Of a stretch of DNA of 36,663 nucleotides, positions 2,762-13,474 are shown one piece after another; the stretch's first letter is position 1, and every line of letters starts with the position of its first letter. This DNA is from Rhodothermus sp. (GTDB taxonomy: Bacteria; Bacteroidota; Rhodothermia; Rhodothermales; Rhodothermaceae): positions 1 to 36,663 of the forward strand of contig JALSJJ010000251.1 in assembly GCA_026989375.1 (NCBI GenBank), written 5' to 3'. Made by a program: the position numbers and the translations under genes. The notes below the pieces were generated by a model, which saw only the letters and a program-made list of their open reading frames with translations, did no database searches and was not told the DNA's origin.

Positions 2762-2799
2762 CAACGCCTGGCTTCTCAATAGCCAGGCGTTGCTTTTTT
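2762..2799 (+). terminator. Rho-independent terminator of the first SusC/SusD operon
   Basis: A perfect 11-bp inverted repeat (2762-2772 with 2782-2792) surrounds a 9-base loop and is followed by C and six T. It begins 24 bases after the SusD stop codon. Confidence 0.9.
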
Positions 2800-2856: not shown

Positions 2857-4500
2857 GTGCAGATGGTCCTCTGGCGATTATCATTCCTGATTGGGCTGTT
2901 GGGATTGGTCGCTGTCCAGGCTTTTGCCCAGTCCGCGCTATCTGACACATTGCGGGCACAGCAATTGCTGGTGCGTAGCCTGACCTACCTGGAAGTCGGC
3001 CAGCCAGATAGAGCCATTCCGCTGCTCGAAGAGGCGCTGAACCTGCTCCCGAACACACCGGCCCTGCTGAGCACCCTGGGGCGTGCCTATCGCCAGGAAA
3101 ATGATCTGCCTACGGCCCGCTTCTATGCGGAAAGAGCCTGTCGGCAGGCGCCGCAGGAGATCAGCTACTGCCACGAATGGCTCGACTTGCTCGAAGCTAC
3201 CGGCGAAACGGCAGCTCTCCAGGAGGCGATCCGCTTCATGCGTCAGTACCATCCTGAGGCTCCCTCTGTGCTGCAATGGCAGGCCCGCTGGGCGCAGCAG
3301 CGCGGGGATCTTATAACGGCCCGTCGGCTCTACGAACAGTTGCGCGACCGCTATGGCGCCGATACCAGCCTGTACCGGGTGCTCTGGTCGTTGCAACTGG
3401 CCACGGGCGACTCACTGGCCGCCCAGCGTACGCTGGAAACACTGCTTTCCTTGGAGCCCGACCAGCCACACCTCTGGCGCATCCTGGGCACGCTCTACCT
3501 GCACCAGGGCTTCCGCGAGAAGGCTCGCTGGGCACTGGAACGCACGCTGCGACTCGATCCCCGAGACACCGTAGCCGCACACCTGCTGGTCCGCCTTGCC
3601 CCCCATCCCTCGACTCCAGAAGCCCTCCTGGCCCGTGCACGACACCTGATCACTCAGCATCCCACAGATCCACAGGCCCTCCAGGAAGCACGTGCCCTGT
3701 TGCAGGACGTGTTGCGTCAGGACTCGACCCACGTCGCAGCGCTTCGTCTGCTGGCCCACCTGTACCGCGATCGGCACCCGGACTGGGCGGCTGCATTGCT
3801 CACCCGCAGCCTGCAATACGATCCCCGCGATCTGTCCATCTGGAGCGCGGCTGCACAAGCCTGGCTGGAAGCCGGTATGCCTCGTCGCAGCACACAGGTG
3901 GTCGAAGAGGGGCTGTTTCTCTTTCCGGACCAGCCTGCACTCTTACGGCTGGCCGCTTATGCTTACCTGTTGCTGGGCCAACCGGAGGCCGCCCTTCCCT
4001 TTGTAGAAACTTTTCTGAAGCACCTGCCCGAATGGCCCGAACAGTCCACAGAAACGACGGCGGAGTTTTACGCGCTACAGGGCCACCTGCTGGCCCGCCT
4101 GCAGCAACCCGAGGCTGCACGCGCAGCCTGCCGGCAGGCACGGCAGCAGGGCCGCCGCCTGCCTTCCGTACGCCTCCACTGCGCTGTGGTGGCCTGGATG
4201 ACCGACCATACCGAAAACGCCCTCCAGGAAGCCGCTACTGCCCTCCCTGTCCAACCTGAACCCTGGATGCTGGAGACGCTCGGCTGGTTGTACCTCCAGG
4301 CCGGACAATCTGAGCAAGCCCGTGCCGTGCTCCAGCAGGCGCTGCAGACCGGTCATGCCGGTCCCCTTACCTACGCCTACCTGGGCGAAGCACTGGCCCG
4401 CATGGGCCACCAGGACGAGGCCCAACGTATCTGGCAAGAAGGGCTTCGGAAAAACCCGGATAACCCTTACCTCCAGCGTCTTCTCACTACGCATCAATGA
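2857..4500 (+). CDS. Exported tetratricopeptide-repeat protein
   Basis: The 547-residue protein has a signal peptide (hydrophobic core ending AQAFAQ, residues about 5-24) followed almost entirely by TPR-like helix pairs; repeated signatures include Y-LEVGQPDRAIPLLEEAL, LGRAYRQENDLPTARF, LGTLYLHQGFREKARW and LGWLYLQAGQSEQARA. There is no catalytic motif, so a scaffold role in the periplasm is the natural reading. The start is GTG at 2857, with an ATG two codons later as an alternative. Its stop overlaps the ATG of the DUF4292 gene (ATGA at 4497-4500), implying translational coupling. I recall TPR, DUF4292 and M23/LytM genes standing together in other Bacteroidota; that synteny is from memory and was not checked here. 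Confidence 0.85.
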   Translation: MQMVLWRLSFLIGLLGLVAVQAFAQSALSDTLRAQQLLVRSLTYLEVGQPDRAIPLLEEALNLLPNTPALLSTLGRAYRQENDLPTARFYAERACRQAPQEISYCHEWLDLLEATGETAALQEAIRFMRQYHPEAPSVLQWQARWAQQRGDLITARRLYEQLRDRYGADTSLYRVLWSLQLATGDSLAAQRTLETLLSLEPDQPHLWRILGTLYLHQGFREKARWALERTLRLDPRDTVAAHLLVRLAPHPSTPEALLARARHLITQHPTDPQALQEARALLQDVLRQDSTHVAALRLLAHLYRDRHPDWAAALLTRSLQYDPRDLSIWSAAAQAWLEAGMPRRSTQVVEEGLFLFPDQPALLRLAAYAYLLLGQPEAALPFVETFLKHLPEWPEQSTETTAEFYALQGHLLARLQQPEAARAACRQARQQGRRLPSVRLHCAVVAWMTDHTENALQEAATALPVQPEPWMLETLGWLYLQAGQSEQARAVLQQALQTGHAGPLTYAYLGEALARMGHQDEAQRIWQEGLRKNPDNPYLQRLLTTHQ

Positions 4501-5303
4501 GCTTCTGCACTATGCGCTCGCCCTGGTCGCTCTTCGTATTGTTAGCTGGCCTGCTGCTGGGCGGATGCGCCCGTGGTCCACACCTTGCTGAACGCCCCGA
4601 CCTCCCCGCCCGCTTCCCTTATCATTCTGCCGAACAGATTCGCCACCAGCTCCGTCTGCCGCTCGATACCCTCTACGCGTTTATCGGCCAGGCCAGACTG
4701 CAGATGCGTACCTCTGGAGGCACCGATAACCTCTCAGCCACTATCGTCGCTCGCCGGCACGACTCCCTTCTGATCCGCCTGAGTCCTGGTTGGGGCATTG
4801 AGGCCGCGCGCTTGTTGATTACCCCGGACAGTGTGCTGCTGCACGATCGCATCCATCATCGGCTGTACACGGGCACGCGTGTCGATCCAGCCGTACGTCG
4901 TCTGCCGCTGCTGACCGAAAGCGACCCGTTTCTGAGTCTGCTGGGCGCACTCTATCCGCCACCCGGACGCTGGCATGTAACCGCCGACTCCAGTTATTAC
5001 TATTTGAGCGACCCCACGGGACAGCATCGATACGTCGTGGACCCGGCCCGGTGGCGCATAGTTCGCTATGAACGCTATGATGTGGTCGGCACGCTTGTTG
5101 AGGCTTACCGCTTCGAAGCGTTCGATCGGTTTGGCCGACTATTTCTTCCACGTCGGCTGCTGCTCGAACGCCCCGACCTTGGCGTAACCGTCCGGCTATA
5201 CTACCGCACGTTACAACTAAACCCGCCGGAGCTACCGTTTGTCTGGCATCCGGACGACCGCACGCGCCGCATTCCCTTTCAAGCCCTGCGAGAACGACCA
5301 TGA
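4497..5303 (+). CDS. DUF4292-family lipoprotein
   Basis: The 268-residue product starts with a lipoprotein signal peptide ending LLLGGC (Cys24). The body is beta-rich, with the pattern LYAFIGQARLQMRTSGGTDNL followed by further strands (SLLIRLSPGWGIEAARLLITPDSVLLHDR), which fits DUF4292 proteins of Bacteroidota. The LolA/LolB-like half-barrel style of this sequence makes a lipid- or lipoprotein-handling role conceivable, but that is inference. It begins in an ATGA overlap with the TPR gene and ends in a second ATGA overlap (5300-5303) with the LytM gene, so all three are read from one message. An in-frame ATG at 4512 is an alternative start. Confidence 0.8.
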   Translation: MSFCTMRSPWSLFVLLAGLLLGGCARGPHLAERPDLPARFPYHSAEQIRHQLRLPLDTLYAFIGQARLQMRTSGGTDNLSATIVARRHDSLLIRLSPGWGIEAARLLITPDSVLLHDRIHHRLYTGTRVDPAVRRLPLLTESDPFLSLLGALYPPPGRWHVTADSSYYYLSDPTGQHRYVVDPARWRIVRYERYDVVGTLVEAYRFEAFDRFGRLFLPRRLLLERPDLGVTVRLYYRTLQLNPPELPFVWHPDDRTRRIPFQALRERP

Positions 5304-6490
5304 AGCGCTTGCTTCTATACCTGTTGCTCACGCTGAGCGCCCTGACCGCTCTGGCCCAACCCACTCAGAATCGCACCGAAATTGAGCGTCGCCTCCAGGC
5401 GCTTCGTGAACAGATCCAACAGGAAGAAGCAAGGCTGGCCGAAACGGCGGAAGCTGAGGCGGCTACGCTGCAAACGCTCGAAAGCATCGAACGCCAGATT
5501 GCCATTCGACGCGAACTGATCCGAAGCTACCGGCAACGCCGGGAGGAGCTGGCCCGCACGATCGACTCCTTGCAACAGGCGGCCCGGGCACTCAGCCAGG
5601 AAATCGAAAAACTGAAGGCCCAGTATCGCCGCCGGGCCCTGCACGCTTACAAGTACGGCCGCATGCACGACCTGGCCCTGCTCCTTTCAGCGCAATCCAT
5701 CAATCAGATGCTCATTCGGGCCCGATACCTGGGCCGTTTTGCGCGTCAGCGTCAGGCCAAGCTTGAAGCAATCCAGCAGGCAACGGCCGCACTGGAAGCA
5801 CGCCGTCAGCAGCTCCTGGCGGCCCGACAGGAAACCGAGCAGTTACTTCAGGAAGCCGAAGCCGAACGGCAACGGCTGGCCCGTCTGGAACGCGAGCGCC
5901 GTCGCGTGATTCGAGCACTGCGCGCCCAGCGCGCTTCGCTGGAGCAGTCCCTGGCGCAAAAACGCCAGGCAGCCCGCGAACTGGAATCCCGCATCCGCGC
6001 GCTGCTGGCGGCCGAACGGGAACGCCGGCGTACCCGCGAAGCGGCCGATCCATCGGCAGCCGTTGCCTTTGCCGAACTGACCGGATCGTTTGAACAAAAC
6101 CGGGGCCGCCTGCCCTGGCCGGCCGAAGGCGCCGTCGTCGAGCCTTTTGGCGAAGTAGTCAATCCCGTCTATGGCACGCGCACGCCCAATCCTGGTATTC
6201 TGATTGCCACGGCACCGCAGGCCGAAGTACGCGCAGTCTTCGACGGCCGCGTGATCGCCATTGATGCCATGCCCGAGTACGGAACGTATATCCTCATCCA
6301 GCACGGCGAATACCAGACCTTCTACAGCAACCTGTCGCTTGTGTACGTATCGGTCGGCCAGCAAGTCCGGGCCGGACAGCTCATCGGACGCGCCGGCACC
6401 GAGGCCGAACCCAAACGCGCCGGCGTGTTCTTTTCCCTCTTCCGAGGCGGCCAGGTGCTGAATCCCATGCCATGGCTACGCCCCCGCTGA
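5300..6490 (+). CDS. EnvC-like murein hydrolase activator: coiled coil plus degenerate LytM/M23 domain
   Basis: The 396-residue protein has a signal peptide (cleavage near ALA-Q, residue 19), a long Glu/Arg/Gln-rich coiled coil (about 25-250) and a C-terminal LytM/M23 domain from about residue 269. The usual zinc ligands are absent: where active enzymes have H-x-G-I-D the sequence reads N-P-G-I-L (Asn297, Leu301), and where HLH is expected it reads G-V-F (375-377). E. coli EnvC has the same layout and a degenerate LytM domain, and activates amidases rather than cutting peptidoglycan; I infer the same here. Start in an ATGA overlap with the DUF4292 gene. No clear terminator follows. Confidence 0.88.
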   Translation: MKRLLLYLLLTLSALTALAQPTQNRTEIERRLQALREQIQQEEARLAETAEAEAATLQTLESIERQIAIRRELIRSYRQRREELARTIDSLQQAARALSQEIEKLKAQYRRRALHAYKYGRMHDLALLLSAQSINQMLIRARYLGRFARQRQAKLEAIQQATAALEARRQQLLAARQETEQLLQEAEAERQRLARLERERRRVIRALRAQRASLEQSLAQKRQAARELESRIRALLAAERERRRTREAADPSAAVAFAELTGSFEQNRGRLPWPAEGAVVEPFGEVVNPVYGTRTPNPGILIATAPQAEVRAVFDGRVIAIDAMPEYGTYILIQHGEYQTFYSNLSLVYVSVGQQVRAGQLIGRAGTEAEPKRAGVFFSLFRGGQVLNPMPWLRPR

Positions 6491-6603: not shown

Positions 6604-8028
6604 ATGGCTAACAACGCCCGCTACGATGTGGTGGTCATCGGCTCCGGCCCCGGCGGCTACGAAACCGCCATCCGAGCCGCTCAACTCGGCTTTAAAACCG
6701 CCATTATCGAAAAAAATAAGCTCGGGGGCGTCTGCCTCAATATCGGCTGCATTCCTACAAAGGCGCTGCTGAAAAGCGCCGAAATGATGGCCGAAGCCCG
6801 AAACCTGAAAGCCTATGGGCTGAAGCTCAACGGCGAGGTGGTGCCCGACTTTGCCAAAGTGATCGAGCGCAGCCGGGCCGTCGCCGACAAAATGAGCCGG
6901 GGCGTGGCCTTTCTGATGAAAAAAAACAAGATCGACGTCATCTGGGGCCAGGCGCGGCTGGTAGGCAAAGGCAAGATCGACGTGCAGCCGTCCGTGAACA
7001 TGGAAGGCAAAAAAATCGGCGAGCCGCGCACCGTCGAGGCTACCCATATTATTCTGGCGACCGGAGCTCGAGCCCGTCAGATTCCGGCGCTACCTGTCGA
7101 TGGCAAAAAGATCATCACCTACAAGGAAGCGCTGCTCCAGAAGCAGCAACCCAAGCGGCTGGTGATCGTCGGCGCCGGTGCCATCGGCGTCGAGTTCGCC
7201 TACTTCTATCACCATATGGGCACCGAAGTAACGCTGATCGAGCTGATGGATCGGATTGTGCCCATCGAGGACGCCGACATCTCGAAAGAGCTGGAGCGGG
7301 CCTATCGAAAGATGGGCATCAAGGTGATGACCAGTGCCCAGGTGGAATCGGTTGATACCAAAGGCAAAACCCTGAAAGTCAGGGTCAAGACGAAAAAAGG
7401 CGAGGAAGTCATTCAGGCCGACCAGGTGCTTTCGGCCGTCGGCGTGGTGGGCAACATTGAAGACCTGGGCCTGGAAGAGCTGGGGGTTGAAACGAAACCT
7501 GGCCAGATCGTCGTAGACGAGTTCTACCGGACGAACGTCGAGGGCATCTACGCCATTGGCGACGTGGCCGGGCCACCCTGGCTCGCCCACAAAGCCAGTC
7601 ACGAAGGCATCCTGTGCGTGGAGAAGATCGCCGGTAAAGAAGTGCACCCCCTCAACTATAACAACATCCCCGGCTGCACCTACTGCCAGCCGCAGATTGC
7701 CTCGGTGGGCTACACCGAAGAAAAGGCACGTGAAGCTGGCTATGATATCAAGGTGGGTAAATTCCCCTTCACGGCATCCGGCAAAGCTACAGCCCTGGGG
7801 CATACCGAGGGTTTTGTGAAGGTGATCTTCGACGCGAAGTACGGCGAATTCCTCGGCTGCCACATCATCGGCCACGACGCGACCGAGTTGATCGCCGAAG
7901 CGGTCACGGCTCGCACGCTGGAAACGACCGTCCATGAAATCATTGAATCCATGCATCCCCACCCCACACTGTCGGAGGCCATCATGGAAGCAGCCCGCGC
8001 TGCCATTGGTGAGCCCATTAACATCTGA
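6604..8028 (+). CDS. lpdA: Dihydrolipoyl dehydrogenase (E3)
   Basis: The 474-residue flavoprotein oxidises dihydrolipoamide on E2 subunits with NAD+ and serves pyruvate, 2-oxoglutarate or branched-chain dehydrogenase complexes or the glycine cleavage system. Visible motifs are the FAD-binding GSGPGG (residues 13-18), the redox-active disulfide CLNIGC (Cys44/Cys49), the NAD-binding VGAGAIGVEF near residue 190, the second FAD motif YAIGDVAG and the C-terminal HPHPTLSE with the His453/Glu458 catalytic pair. Length is normal for the family. No E1 or E2 gene is adjacent, so its partner complex cannot be told from context. It has its own promoter candidate and terminator, so it is probably transcribed alone. 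Confidence 0.97.
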   Translation: MANNARYDVVVIGSGPGGYETAIRAAQLGFKTAIIEKNKLGGVCLNIGCIPTKALLKSAEMMAEARNLKAYGLKLNGEVVPDFAKVIERSRAVADKMSRGVAFLMKKNKIDVIWGQARLVGKGKIDVQPSVNMEGKKIGEPRTVEATHIILATGARARQIPALPVDGKKIITYKEALLQKQQPKRLVIVGAGAIGVEFAYFYHHMGTEVTLIELMDRIVPIEDADISKELERAYRKMGIKVMTSAQVESVDTKGKTLKVRVKTKKGEEVIQADQVLSAVGVVGNIEDLGLEELGVETKPGQIVVDEFYRTNVEGIYAIGDVAGPPWLAHKASHEGILCVEKIAGKEVHPLNYNNIPGCTYCQPQIASVGYTEEKAREAGYDIKVGKFPFTASGKATALGHTEGFVKVIFDAKYGEFLGCHIIGHDATELIAEAVTARTLETTVHEIIESMHPHPTLSEAIMEAARAAIGEPINI

Positions 8029-9146: not shown

Positions 9147-12137
9147 ATGCGTTCTTGGTTGTTGGCCTGGCTGCTTATCTGGGCCCTTCCGGCCCTTCCT
9201 GCATGGAGTCAACGTATTGTTGAAGGAACCGTTGTCGATGCCCGATCGGGCGATCCCCTTCCAGGCGTTAGCATTGTGCTGAAAGGCACGATGCAGGGGA
9301 CCACCACGGACGTGGATGGGCATTTCTCCATTGAATTGCCCATGGGGCCCCAGGTCCTCGTCTTTTCCTTTGTGGGCTACCGCACGCAGGAGGTAACCGT
9401 CTCACCCGAGATGACCTCCTTAGCGATTCGCCTGGAAGAAGATGTGCTGGGGCTTGAGGAAGTTGTGGTCACCGGCCTGGCCACTTCGGTGCGACGGAGT
9501 AATCTGGCCCATGCCGTCGCCACCATCAACGCAGCGGAGCTGGCGGAGATAACCGCCCAGCCCACGCTGGACGCTGCGCTCAGTGGAAAAGTTACCGGCG
9601 CGTATATCAGTGCTTACAGTGGCGCACCCGGTGGCGGGTTATCCATCAAGCTACGAGGCATCTCCACCATTAACGGAAACGCACAGCCCCTGTTTGTAGT
9701 CGACGGGGTACTGATCGACAACTCCCAGATTCAGAGCGGCGTCGATGCGGTCACCAATGCCACAGGCGGGGGTAGCGGCATCGCCCAAGATAACCCGGTA
9801 AACCGCATTGCCGATCTAAACCCGGAGGATATCGAATCGGTAGAAATTCTTAAGGGCGCTTCTGCGGCCGCCTTGTATGGAGCGCGCGCCTCCAATGGGG
9901 TGGTGATCATTCGCACTAAGCGAGGGCGCCCCGGACAGACCGTCGTACGCATCCGCCAGGAGGTCGGCTTTAATGAGATTTCCAAACGGCTGGGAACACG
10001 TACCTTTACCGAAGAGACCGCTCTCGAATTTTTTGGTCCAAAAGGATTGGAAGAGTTCCGGGCCGCCGTAAACGGTCGGGGCTTCTACGACTATGAAGAC
10101 TTGCTCTATGGACAGCGCGGGCTGTTGTACCGGACCAGTCTGTCGGTCAGTGGGGGCACCGAGCGCACCCAGTTCTACGCTTCGGGCCTGTTGCATAACG
10201 AGGAGGGCATTGTCCGTCGTACAGGTTATGACAAATACAGTCTTCGGCTCAATTTAAGCCATCGTCTGACCGAGCGTATTCACCTTGAAATGACGACCAA
10301 CTATGTCCGCGCGGCCACCCGACGTGGCCTGACCGGCAATGACAACTCGGGAACCACCTTTGGCATCTCGCTCGCGGCTACCCCGAACTTTGTTTATCTC
10401 CTGCCTGACGAAAACGGCATTTACCCGGACCACCCCTTCAACTCGGCCAATCCCTTGCAGACAGCCGCTTTGATGAAAAACGAGGAGACCGTAAACCGCT
10501 TTATTGGTTCTGGACGCTTGCGGATCAACCTGTTACGTCAGGCGCGTCAGGCCTTGCAGATCATTCTGGAAGGGGGCGCAGACTTCTACAACCTGGAAAA
10601 TGATGCCCGCTTTCCGGTCGAACTTCAGTTCGAGCGGCTCAACGTAGATGGCCGCGGCCCGGGCACGCTTATCCTGCGCGAAGCCAACACCTTCAACACC
10701 AACTGGCGTCTGCTCCTGGTTCATACCTGGACACCGGCCACCCTGGATTTTACGCTGACCTCACAGGGAGGGCTGACCGGTGCAAACTTTGACCAGAACC
10801 AGTTGCTCTTCGTAGCTGACGGCCTTGTGCCCGGCCAGCAGAATCTGGACCAGGCATCGACCATCTCGCAGGAACAAACGCGCCAGTTTCAGCGAGATCG
10901 CAGCTTCTTCTTCCAGGAAGAAGCCAACTGGGCTGATCGTTTGATTGTAACGGTGGGCCTTCGAGGAGATAAAAGCTCGATCAATGGTAATGTCAACCGA
11001 TTCTTTCTCTATCCCAAAGCTTCTCTGGCCATCAATTTGCATCAATTCCCGTTCTGGCGCTGGCCTGCCATTGACCAGCTCAAACTACGGTTAGCCTGGG
11101 GCCAGACCGGCAATATCGCCGGCTTTGGAATCAAGTATACTTCTTTTGATCCCACCGTCATTGGTGGTCAAGCGGGTTCTATCATCAGCCCTCGACGCGG
11201 GTTTGAAAATGTAAAACCGGAACGCCAAACGGAGCTCGAAGGTGGGGTTGACGTAGCGCTCTTCAACGGGCGGGCTGCCCTGGAATTTACGCTTTATCGT
11301 AAGGTCATCACCGACCTGCTGCTCCAACGTGAAGTAGAGCCGTCTACCGGCTTTGGGCTGGAAACCTTCAATGGCGGCGAACTGGAAAACGTGGGTCTGG
11401 AAATAGGCCTTTCGCTGATTCCGGTTGATCGCCCGAACCTGCGCTGGATCAGCCAGATCCGATTCTGGACCAATCGGGCAACGGTTACCCGGCTGCCTGT
11501 TCCTCCATTTCGTGCTCTGGGCGGCGGCTTTGGAGCCACACTGGGCGAAATTCGCATTGAGGAAGGCCAGAGTCCCACTCAGATTGTGGGGATCGACGAC
11601 ATCGACGGAGATGGCCGCCCTGACGGCGTATTTAAGCTGGGGGATGTCGCCCCCAAGTTTCAGCTATCGCTCTCGAATGAATGGTCCATTGCCCGCCGGT
11701 TGACCCTTTCCGTGCTGGCCCATTGGAAATACGGAGGGGATAACCTGAACCTGACCATGCTGTTGTACGATCTGTTTGGTACCAGCCCGGACTTCGACAA
11801 GGACGACGACGGAGATGGCATTCCGAACGGCGTCGAACGGGTCAGCTTACTGGGGGTCTCGGCACGTCCCTTTGTACAGAATGCTTCTTATTTCCGCATT
11901 CGAGAAATCGGGCTGTACTATGATGTGCCGCTGAAGCGTCTCTGGCCCACGCTGGGTCAGACGGTACGACGGCTTCGCATTGGCATTTCGGCCCGTAATC
12001 CCATAACCATAACGCCTTATGCCAGCTATGATCCGGAAGTGAACAACTTTGGCACGCAGCCAGTCGCCGACGGCGTTGAGGTAACCCCCTACCCCGCTTA
12101 CCGGACTTTCCTGTTTTATCTGGGTTTTGAACTCTAA
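9147..12137 (+). CDS. SusC/RagA-family TonB-dependent outer-membrane receptor (complete)
   Basis: The 996-residue receptor is complete. It has a signal peptide ending PAWSQ (residue 22), a carboxypeptidase-regulatory-like beta-sandwich (about 23-105, starting IVEGTVVDARSGDPLPGVS) and a TonB-box-like segment EEVVVTG. The plug runs to about residue 250, with the SusC hallmarks SIKLRGISTING, PLFVVDGV and ALYGARASNGVVIIRTKRG. A 22-strand-type barrel follows, with late motifs NVKPERQTELEGGVD and two acidic NGDG-like loops. It imports a nutrient across the outer membrane with energy from TonB-ExbB-ExbD. The SusD partner starts 11 bases downstream. No glycoside hydrolase or peptidase lies alongside, so this is not a typical polysaccharide utilisation locus and the substrate is open. 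Confidence 0.96.
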   Translation: MRSWLLAWLLIWALPALPAWSQRIVEGTVVDARSGDPLPGVSIVLKGTMQGTTTDVDGHFSIELPMGPQVLVFSFVGYRTQEVTVSPEMTSLAIRLEEDVLGLEEVVVTGLATSVRRSNLAHAVATINAAELAEITAQPTLDAALSGKVTGAYISAYSGAPGGGLSIKLRGISTINGNAQPLFVVDGVLIDNSQIQSGVDAVTNATGGGSGIAQDNPVNRIADLNPEDIESVEILKGASAAALYGARASNGVVIIRTKRGRPGQTVVRIRQEVGFNEISKRLGTRTFTEETALEFFGPKGLEEFRAAVNGRGFYDYEDLLYGQRGLLYRTSLSVSGGTERTQFYASGLLHNEEGIVRRTGYDKYSLRLNLSHRLTERIHLEMTTNYVRAATRRGLTGNDNSGTTFGISLAATPNFVYLLPDENGIYPDHPFNSANPLQTAALMKNEETVNRFIGSGRLRINLLRQARQALQIILEGGADFYNLENDARFPVELQFERLNVDGRGPGTLILREANTFNTNWRLLLVHTWTPATLDFTLTSQGGLTGANFDQNQLLFVADGLVPGQQNLDQASTISQEQTRQFQRDRSFFFQEEANWADRLIVTVGLRGDKSSINGNVNRFFLYPKASLAINLHQFPFWRWPAIDQLKLRLAWGQTGNIAGFGIKYTSFDPTVIGGQAGSIISPRRGFENVKPERQTELEGGVDVALFNGRAALEFTLYRKVITDLLLQREVEPSTGFGLETFNGGELENVGLEIGLSLIPVDRPNLRWISQIRFWTNRATVTRLPVPPFRALGGGFGATLGEIRIEEGQSPTQIVGIDDIDGDGRPDGVFKLGDVAPKFQLSLSNEWSIARRLTLSVLAHWKYGGDNLNLTMLLYDLFGTSPDFDKDDDGDGIPNGVERVSLLGVSARPFVQNASYFRIREIGLYYDVPLKRLWPTLGQTVRRLRIGISARNPITITPYASYDPEVNNFGTQPVADGVEVTPYPAYRTFLFYLGFEL

Positions 12138-12148
12138 CACATGCAGCC

Positions 12149-13474
12149 ATGCTCATGAAACGTCTGACCTGCTATACCGCGCTGTTGATGCTGCTCCTAT
12201 GGACGAGCGGCTGTGATTTGTTGACGATTGAGGATCGTCCCGATCCCAATGGACCCAGCTTAGAGGATCTGCTGCAGAATCCGACACGCGCCAAACTCGC
12301 CAACCTGGCCACCGGGATCGAATCGGCCAGCCGTTTTGAGCTGAACATTTACTTGATCGATGTCGGCATGATCGGCCGAGAATACTGGCGCTTTTCGTCT
12401 GCAGATCCTCGCTTTACGGGTGATCTGCTGGGTAAAGGAACGGCCGTGCTGGACAACAACACGTTCTATATCACGCGGCCCTGGGGCGCACGTTACCGTG
12501 TAGTGCGCAATGCGCACATATTACTGGAGGCGCTTGCCAATGCCGCCGACCTGAGCGACGCCGAAAAACGCGCCCTGGCCGGCTTTGCTAAAACCTTCAT
12601 CGCATATCAGTTACTTTTGAATCTGAATCTGACTTACGACAATGGCATCCGGGTCGATGTCTCCGGCCCTGAACCTGGACCAATTGTTTCTCGCAGCGAA
12701 GCGTTGGCCTTTATCGCCAGCCTGCTGGATGAGGCGGCCCAGGACCTTTCGGCCGGTGGCGATGCCTTCCCCTTCCCGCTGTCTTCAGGCTTTGCGGGAT
12801 TCGATACCCCGGCCACGTTCCGTCAGTTCAACCGCGCGCTGGCCGCGCGGGTCGCTGCTTACCGTGAGCAATTCGACCAGGTGTTGACGCTGTTGGCCGA
12901 CTCATTTTACGATCCGGATGGAGACCTGAAAACCGGCGTCTATCATAGCTTTTCTACGGCGGCAGGCGACATGGTCAATCCGCTCTTTTTCGATCCCAAT
13001 GCCCCGGCTGGAGATGCGCTGGTCGCCCATCCTTCTTTCGCTGCTGAAATTGAAGCTGGCGACCAACGCCTGAGCAAAGTAGTGCTTCGGGAAGAACCCG
13101 CCTCGCTGGATGGACTTACTTCTAACTATGGTTTCTATGTCTATCCCGCTGCCGACGCACCTATTCCAATCATCCGCAATGCAGAATTGATTTTACTGGC
13201 CGCTGAAGCCCATATCCAGCTGGGGGACCTGGACACGGCCGTGTCGTTACTCAACCGGATCCGCAACGCGGCAGGCCTTCCTGACTATGCTGGCCCGCTG
13301 ACGCAGGAAGCCCTGCTTGACGAGATGCTTCACCAGCGTCGTTATGAGCTCTACGGCGAGGGGCATCGCTGGATCGATCTGCGGCGCTATAACCGGCTGG
13401 ATGAGCTGCCCATCGATCGGCCCGGTGATGACGTCTGGCGTCAATTTCCCATTCCGGCCACAGAAAATCTGTAA
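12149..13474 (+). CDS. SusD/RagB-family outer-membrane nutrient-binding lipoprotein
   Basis: The 441-residue product starts with a lipoprotein signal ending WTSGC (Cys22). A second ATG two codons later (12155) is an equally good start. TPR-like helices follow (RNAELILLAAEAHIQLGDLDTA), and the C-terminal part carries the SusD signature RRYELYGEGHRWIDLRRYNR. It would lie on the cell surface as the substrate-capturing lid of the receptor encoded 11 bases upstream. A strong terminator 26 bases after the stop ends the operon. The clear C-terminal signature makes it a more canonical SusD than the protein encoded at 1248-2738. Confidence 0.95.
   Translation: MLMKRLTCYTALLMLLLWTSGCDLLTIEDRPDPNGPSLEDLLQNPTRAKLANLATGIESASRFELNIYLIDVGMIGREYWRFSSADPRFTGDLLGKGTAVLDNNTFYITRPWGARYRVVRNAHILLEALANAADLSDAEKRALAGFAKTFIAYQLLLNLNLTYDNGIRVDVSGPEPGPIVSRSEALAFIASLLDEAAQDLSAGGDAFPFPLSSGFAGFDTPATFRQFNRALAARVAAYREQFDQVLTLLADSFYDPDGDLKTGVYHSFSTAAGDMVNPLFFDPNAPAGDALVAHPSFAAEIEAGDQRLSKVVLREEPASLDGLTSNYGFYVYPAADAPIPIIRNAELILLAAEAHIQLGDLDTAVSLLNRIRNAAGLPDYAGPLTQEALLDEMLHQRRYELYGEGHRWIDLRRYNRLDELPIDRPGDDVWRQFPIPATENL

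Follow-up and report, generated by a model that had tools for sequence, protein, structure and literature searches.

The window analysed here is a stretch of 36.7 kb of DNA from the Rhodothermus-type genome of a heat-loving bacterium (3.07 Mb in 257 contigs), whose closest named relative is L147 (Rhodothermus sp., DUF4292 protein 83% identical). Three adjoining genes for a tetratricopeptide repeat (TPR) protein, a DUF4292 lipoprotein and an EnvC-like protein probably constitute an operon for envelope biogenesis in the window. In this operon, a LolB-type receptor and an EnvC-type activator would be combined with a TPR scaffold resembling LbcA, and lipoprotein insertion would be matched to wall cleavage by joint expression. 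The identities of LolB and EnvC are solid, and the coupling between them is what we infer. An earlier note on the window had described three exported products whose genes are coupled by two ATGA overlaps. The same coordinates, starts and junctions were obtained (Table 1), the Pfam models TPR, DUF4292 (PF14125) and Peptidase_M23 matched the respective products, and Sec signal sequences on the TPR and EnvC-like proteins as well as a lipobox on the DUF4292 protein, all recognised by eye, agree with export.

The middle gene product matched PF14125 with E=1.8e-17 and 64.2 bits (curated cut-off 23). Its only match in NCBIfam was LolB1_Flavo (NF053559), a model built for Flavobacteria, with 36.2 bits and below the equivalog cut-off of 50; it is filed as LolB type and not as a member of LolB1_Flavo. 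All 19 aligned relatives likewise matched LolB1_Flavo (E<=0.001) and no other NCBIfam model. A structure model was predicted from 19 sequences with a predicted local distance difference test (pLDDT) of 83.5. The structural comparison suggested in the earlier note placed it in the LolA/LolB fold, with a Z score of 18.6 and a root-mean-square deviation (rmsd) of 3.0 over 206 residues to Porphyromonas gingivalis LolB (9tpm) and a Z score of 16.4 to Escherichia coli LolB (1iwm). The PDB entry 9tpm itself carries the label DUF4292. The lipobox LLLGGC24 ends in a Cys that is found at the same column in 79 of 81 relatives. A loop with W99 lies between the model strands 90-96 and 104-108. Judging from the register of the alignment to 9tpm and from the E. 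coli sequence, W99 presumably takes the place of Leu77 in 9tpm and of Leu68 in E. coli LolB on the β3-β4 loop. Of the 81 relatives, 75 have a hydrophobic residue (F, L, I, M or W) at this position. The source genome encodes one LolA (67.2 bits).

LolB1 of Flavobacterium johnsoniae (Fjoh_1066) transports gliding and type IX lipoproteins and requires its protruding loop (De Smet et al. 2025; PMC11885536). For LolB of P. gingivalis (LolB-PG, PGN_0994), the crystal structure 9tpm was solved and LolA binding was measured (Jaiman et al. 2026; PMC13103446). As both proteins are of the DUF4292 type and NCBIfam holds NF053559, the earlier note's view that no function is established for DUF4292 no longer holds. 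On sequence and modelled structure, the identification of the DUF4292 protein as a Bacteroidota LolB-type outer-membrane lipoprotein receptor is solid.

The third gene product matched Peptidase_M23 (Pfam, E=1.9e-18). A profile of 17 relatives was aligned over residues 22-402 with residues 29-418 of E. coli EnvC (8hd0) with E=2.1e-42, which is nearly the full length including the coiled coil. The LytM part of the model superposed on the AmiB-bound EnvC domain (8c0j) with a Z score of 21.2, an rmsd of 1.7 and 35% identity. This domain had been supposed to be inactive, in agreement with the loss of its zinc ligands here and with the finding that an intact zinc site (H, D, HxH set) was present in none of 94 EnvC loci, a few of which overlap. 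The overall shape of the EnvC model is unsure with a predicted template modelling score (pTM) of 0.45 and, therefore, the arrangement of the coiled coil was left unused. With 100 bits against NCBIfam EnvC (NF008644), the protein is below the equivalog cut-off of 270. Its relatedness over the full length and its structure are the grounds for calling it EnvC type, a solid assignment by sequence and model, and it is not counted as a member of that equivalog. Candidate partners in the source genome are one FtsX with the FtsX_ECD loop and one Amidase_3. The genome contains three M23 genes, among which only the member of the trio was identified as EnvC type.

The first gene product showed TPR matches (Pfam) and a Sec signal sequence, and no lipobox was seen by eye. 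When the C-terminal 200 residues of its family were searched against the PDB, the best single stretch was obtained with LbcA (93.8 bits), continuous to near the C-terminal end of LbcA, and an engineered repeat protein reached 58.4 bits in its best stretch. With the full-length profile and summed scores, some eukaryotic TPR proteins outranked LbcA. Since TPR searches cross-match, a reverse search was carried out with an LbcA fragment. Its best match was the TPR gene adjoining DUF4292 in 10 of 17 Rhodothermales genomes, and in the source genome the TPR gene of the trio was found with E=1.7e-9 and the next one with 4e-4. Nearly all LbcA matches in the sampled loci were neighbours of DUF4292, in loci that hold few other TPR genes. 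In Pseudomonas aeruginosa, wall hydrolases, including two of the M23 type, are delivered to the protease CtpA by LbcA (PA4667), an outer-membrane lipoprotein with TPR repeats whose gene belongs to an operon lbcA-lolB-ipk (PMC6050968). The TPR protein of the window may thus be an LbcA-like periplasmic scaffold for wall hydrolases or activators near the outer membrane.

DUF4292 was searched in an order sample of 60 genomes and a phylum sample of 148 genomes and was present in 53 and 145 of them, respectively. Gene neighbourhoods were compared in 81 loci from 40 families. EnvC was located directly downstream of DUF4292 in 61 loci, a TPR gene directly upstream in 58, and both flanked it in 55 loci from 27 families. 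Each of the 18 loci that carry organism names (Rhodothermus, Roseithermus, Lunatimonas, Algoriphagus, Draconibacterium and others) has the pair LolB-EnvC. The trio block runs through most of Bacteroidota, and the conserved three-gene order for which the earlier note had proposed a survey holds far beyond close relatives. This conservation points to a link between outer-membrane building and wall cutting. The motif LSPGxGIEA in L147-L164 is partly a selection effect of a narrow query alignment and was not used as evidence.

The block is not kept everywhere. In the family f14 (Rhodothermales), DUF4292 was detected neither with the Pfam model nor with the A3 profile in five genomes of at least 95% completeness; the A3 profile does detect DUF4292 in G020 and in the divergent G177. 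The TPR gene adjoins EnvC in three f14 loci with a gap of 11-13 bases. DUF4292/LolB thus appears, on sequence searches, to be altogether lost in f14 with TPR-EnvC kept, and the adjacency of TPR and EnvC is therefore independent of LolB. The genomes of the f14 loci L196-L199 measure 2.7-3.0 Mb, and their TPR protein has a lipobox. A similar absence in two f18 genomes was rejected, as the trio is intact there and the Pfam model reached its limit of sensitivity. The pair TPR-LolB occurred without a called EnvC in f12, where EnvC lies far off in one of two genomes and the genome G036 shows an EnvC-like frame with one stop directly after TPR-LolB. LolB-EnvC without a TPR gene was found in f26 and in two of three f23 loci. 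EnvC is located elsewhere and divergent to murA in f22 and f25, and it also lies elsewhere in f38. Because members are dispersed in some families, linkage of the trio is not obligatory. Upstream of the displaced EnvC in L166-L168 lie one to three genes whose small exported products have a repeat-like domain of carboxypeptidase-regulatory type (by eye).

LolB in Bacteroidota is already known. In the open-access literature, no published account was found of a LolB block that includes EnvC and a TPR protein across the phylum, of a TPR-lolB order common to Bacteroidota and Pseudomonas or of a LolB-less TPR-EnvC family, and no paper was found for DUF4292 by name; these three features are apparently new.

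It is possible, though less likely than not, that the three envelope genes are neighbours only, co-transcribed since the demand for each of them scales with growth, with no contact and no further regulatory link. Such an arrangement would allow the block to come apart while the genes are retained, as seen in several families, and other housekeeping genes (for example dut and lpdA) to join it, as seen at some loci. However, an order kept in 27 of 40 families and a TPR-EnvC adjacency that outlasts the deletion of LolB are more than passive drift would leave. The earlier note had instead proposed that all three proteins form a physical complex in the periplasm, with LolB and the TPR protein positioning EnvC. 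Gene order is conserved, TPR arrays are common binding scaffolds and the TPR proteins of several families are lipoproteins, all of which would suit a complex. We nevertheless consider it unlikely: in known systems LolB acts with LolA (PMC13103446) and EnvC with FtsX (PMC7668044), f14 keeps the other two members without LolB, and EnvC and LolB occur without the TPR protein in f23 and f26. A link of lipoprotein traffic to amidase activation, which had been put forward as well, is rated plausible.

Several points weigh against an operon that couples lipoprotein insertion and wall cleavage. In some families, DUF4292 stands alone. LptD (PF19838) follows DUF4292 at 0-36 bases in eight loci from five families (L086-L090, L095, L104, L105), and where these loci were looked at, EnvC follows murA. 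TPR repeats readily match each other. The TPR protein of the window does not have the lipid anchor that LbcA carries (lipoboxes are present on the TPR proteins of several other families), nor does it have the N-terminal extension of LbcA, as its first repeat starts a few residues past the signal sequence (by eye). A gene for a CtpA-type protease was found near the block in none of the sampled loci. Finally, lolB1 mutants of F. johnsoniae look normal in rich medium (PMC11885536). In poor medium, they have abnormal cell shapes; plasmid-borne lolB1 complements these, so that polarity on a neighbouring gene does not simply account for them (PMC11885536).

Filing of the TPR protein as LbcA was rejected, since the lipid anchor and the N-terminal extension are missing, and with no protease gene nearby it is called LbcA-like. 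The extension is helical, binds CtpA and is important for the work of LbcA with this protease (PMC8764530). Its absence together with that of the anchor weighs against another explanation, in which the TPR protein would act as an adaptor in the manner of LbcA: a C-terminal processing protease, whose gene lies at another place, would receive wall hydrolases or EnvC from it, and their level would be set in this way. LbcA as closest single-stretch match and the reciprocal best matches in 10 of 17 genomes are in favour of such a role, as are two C-terminal processing proteases over cut-off in the source genome and the operon that ctpA shares with envC in Pseudomonas (PMC12569750). However, these proteases are nearly universal and none is encoded near any sampled cluster, so that an adaptor of this kind seems improbable. 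The pairing with LptD, which is worth a separate study, would suit a DUF4292 protein that is no insertase and serves as another outer-membrane lipid-handling accessory, for example one tied to the export of lipopolysaccharide. The LolA/LolB fold is also used by other lipid carriers. Such a role of DUF4292 is very unlikely, as the closest structure is a LolA-binding DUF4292 LolB (PMC13103446), LolB1 of F. johnsoniae moves lipoproteins (PMC11885536) and the hydrophobic loop residue is kept.

A crude gene call of the whole window gave 18 pairs of neighbouring genes on the same strand, and 4-base overlaps occur in this set only at the two ATGA junctions of the trio. Within the genus, the TPR-LolB overlap is kept in L147 and replaced by a 7-base gap in L118 and L119; the LolB-EnvC overlap is kept in every locus checked. 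Across the sampled loci, ATGA was found at 18 of 61 LolB-EnvC junctions and at 12 of 58 TPR-LolB junctions. The overlaps suggest co-translation. Fixed stoichiometry, which the earlier note had read from them, was dropped because two loci of the genus lack the first overlap. No promoter of the sigma-70 type was found for the trio, which carries little weight because promoters of Bacteroidota differ from this type.

In the envelope-biogenesis operon that we favour, the LolB-type DUF4292 protein would take lipoproteins from LolA and seat them in the outer membrane. EnvC would present its dead LytM domain on a signal of FtsEX and so switch on a peptidoglycan amidase. The identities behind these two steps are strongly supported by sequence and model. 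The TPR protein may bind wall hydrolases or activators near the outer membrane, with EnvC as its likeliest client, and joint expression may balance lipoprotein insertion with wall cleavage in growth and division. The TPR protein may also contact EnvC, LolB or both.

An organisation of lolB next to ispE and hemA in proteobacteria was stated to be absent in other phyla (2026, PMC13103446). Of this organisation, the TPR-lolB portion known from Pseudomonas does appear to exist in Bacteroidota. The LbcA-like scaffold, LolB and EnvC could even represent an old functional module tying lipoprotein insertion to peptidoglycan cleavage. Pseudomonas and Bacteroidota would share its TPR-LolB half, and the TPR protein would be the hub that holds or times EnvC; we regard this idea as rather doubtful. 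LolB of Bacteroidota was found only in 2025 and its loss has mild effects. The phylum-wide block offers a concrete, testable link from outer-membrane assembly to wall cutting, for which the uncharacterised TPR protein is the first candidate.

Table 1. Features of the trio and its upstream boundary (positions in the window).
Feature	Position	Strand	Remarks
Terminator-like hairpin	2762..2792	+	Strong; 12 pairs, then CTTTTTT; closes the SusD-like gene upstream and marks the operon boundary
TPR gene	2857..4500	+	GTG start, 547 amino acids; ATG at 2863 as alternative start
TPR-LolB stop/start overlap	4497..4500	+	ATGA
DUF4292 lipoprotein gene, LolB type	4497..5303	+	ATG start, 268 amino acids
Codon of Cys24	4566..4568	+	Predicted lipidated residue
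Codons 97-103, loop with W99	4785..4805	+	Between two model strands; correspondence to Leu68 inferred
LolB-EnvC stop/start overlap	5300..5303	+	ATGA
EnvC-type amidase activator gene	5300..6490	+	ATG start, 396 amino acids, Sec signal sequence
EnvC long helices (coiled coil)	5360..6046	+	Residues 21-249, from the model
EnvC LytM/M23 domain	6185..6466	+	Zinc ligands lost

SusC/SusD-like pairs, each consisting of a TonB-dependent receptor and a SusD-like lipoprotein, lie on either side of the trio region (149-2738 and 9147-13474, by eye). Downstream of EnvC, a dihydrolipoyl dehydrogenase-like gene is found at 6604-8028 in the window, and a close relative of it directly follows DUF4292 in L131, a locus in which EnvC was not detected. 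In some families, the block is preceded by a dUTPase gene (L070, L071, L082), which lies directly before DUF4292 in two TPR-less loci.

Compared with LolB1 and LolB-PG of Bacteroidota, the DUF4292 protein has the same fold, a lipobox, a hydrophobic residue on the protruding loop and a LolA in the same genome. It differs in the residue at the tip, which is Trp in Rhodothermus and Leu in the known proteins; PMC11885536 and PMC13103446 do not mention adjoining TPR or EnvC genes. The third protein resembles E. coli EnvC, which acts with FtsEX and AmiA/AmiB, over its full length with coiled coil and dead LytM domain, and FtsX and Amidase_3 are encoded in the genome; unlike E. coli EnvC, it stays under the NCBIfam EnvC cut-off and its gene is grouped with those of LolB and the TPR protein. 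Like Pseudomonas LbcA, the TPR protein has a long array of TPRs in the periplasm and is encoded directly upstream of a LolB gene, and the C-terminal repeats of the two match. In contrast to LbcA, it has neither the lipid anchor nor the N-terminal helical extension, no ipk or protease gene is near, and the third gene is EnvC.

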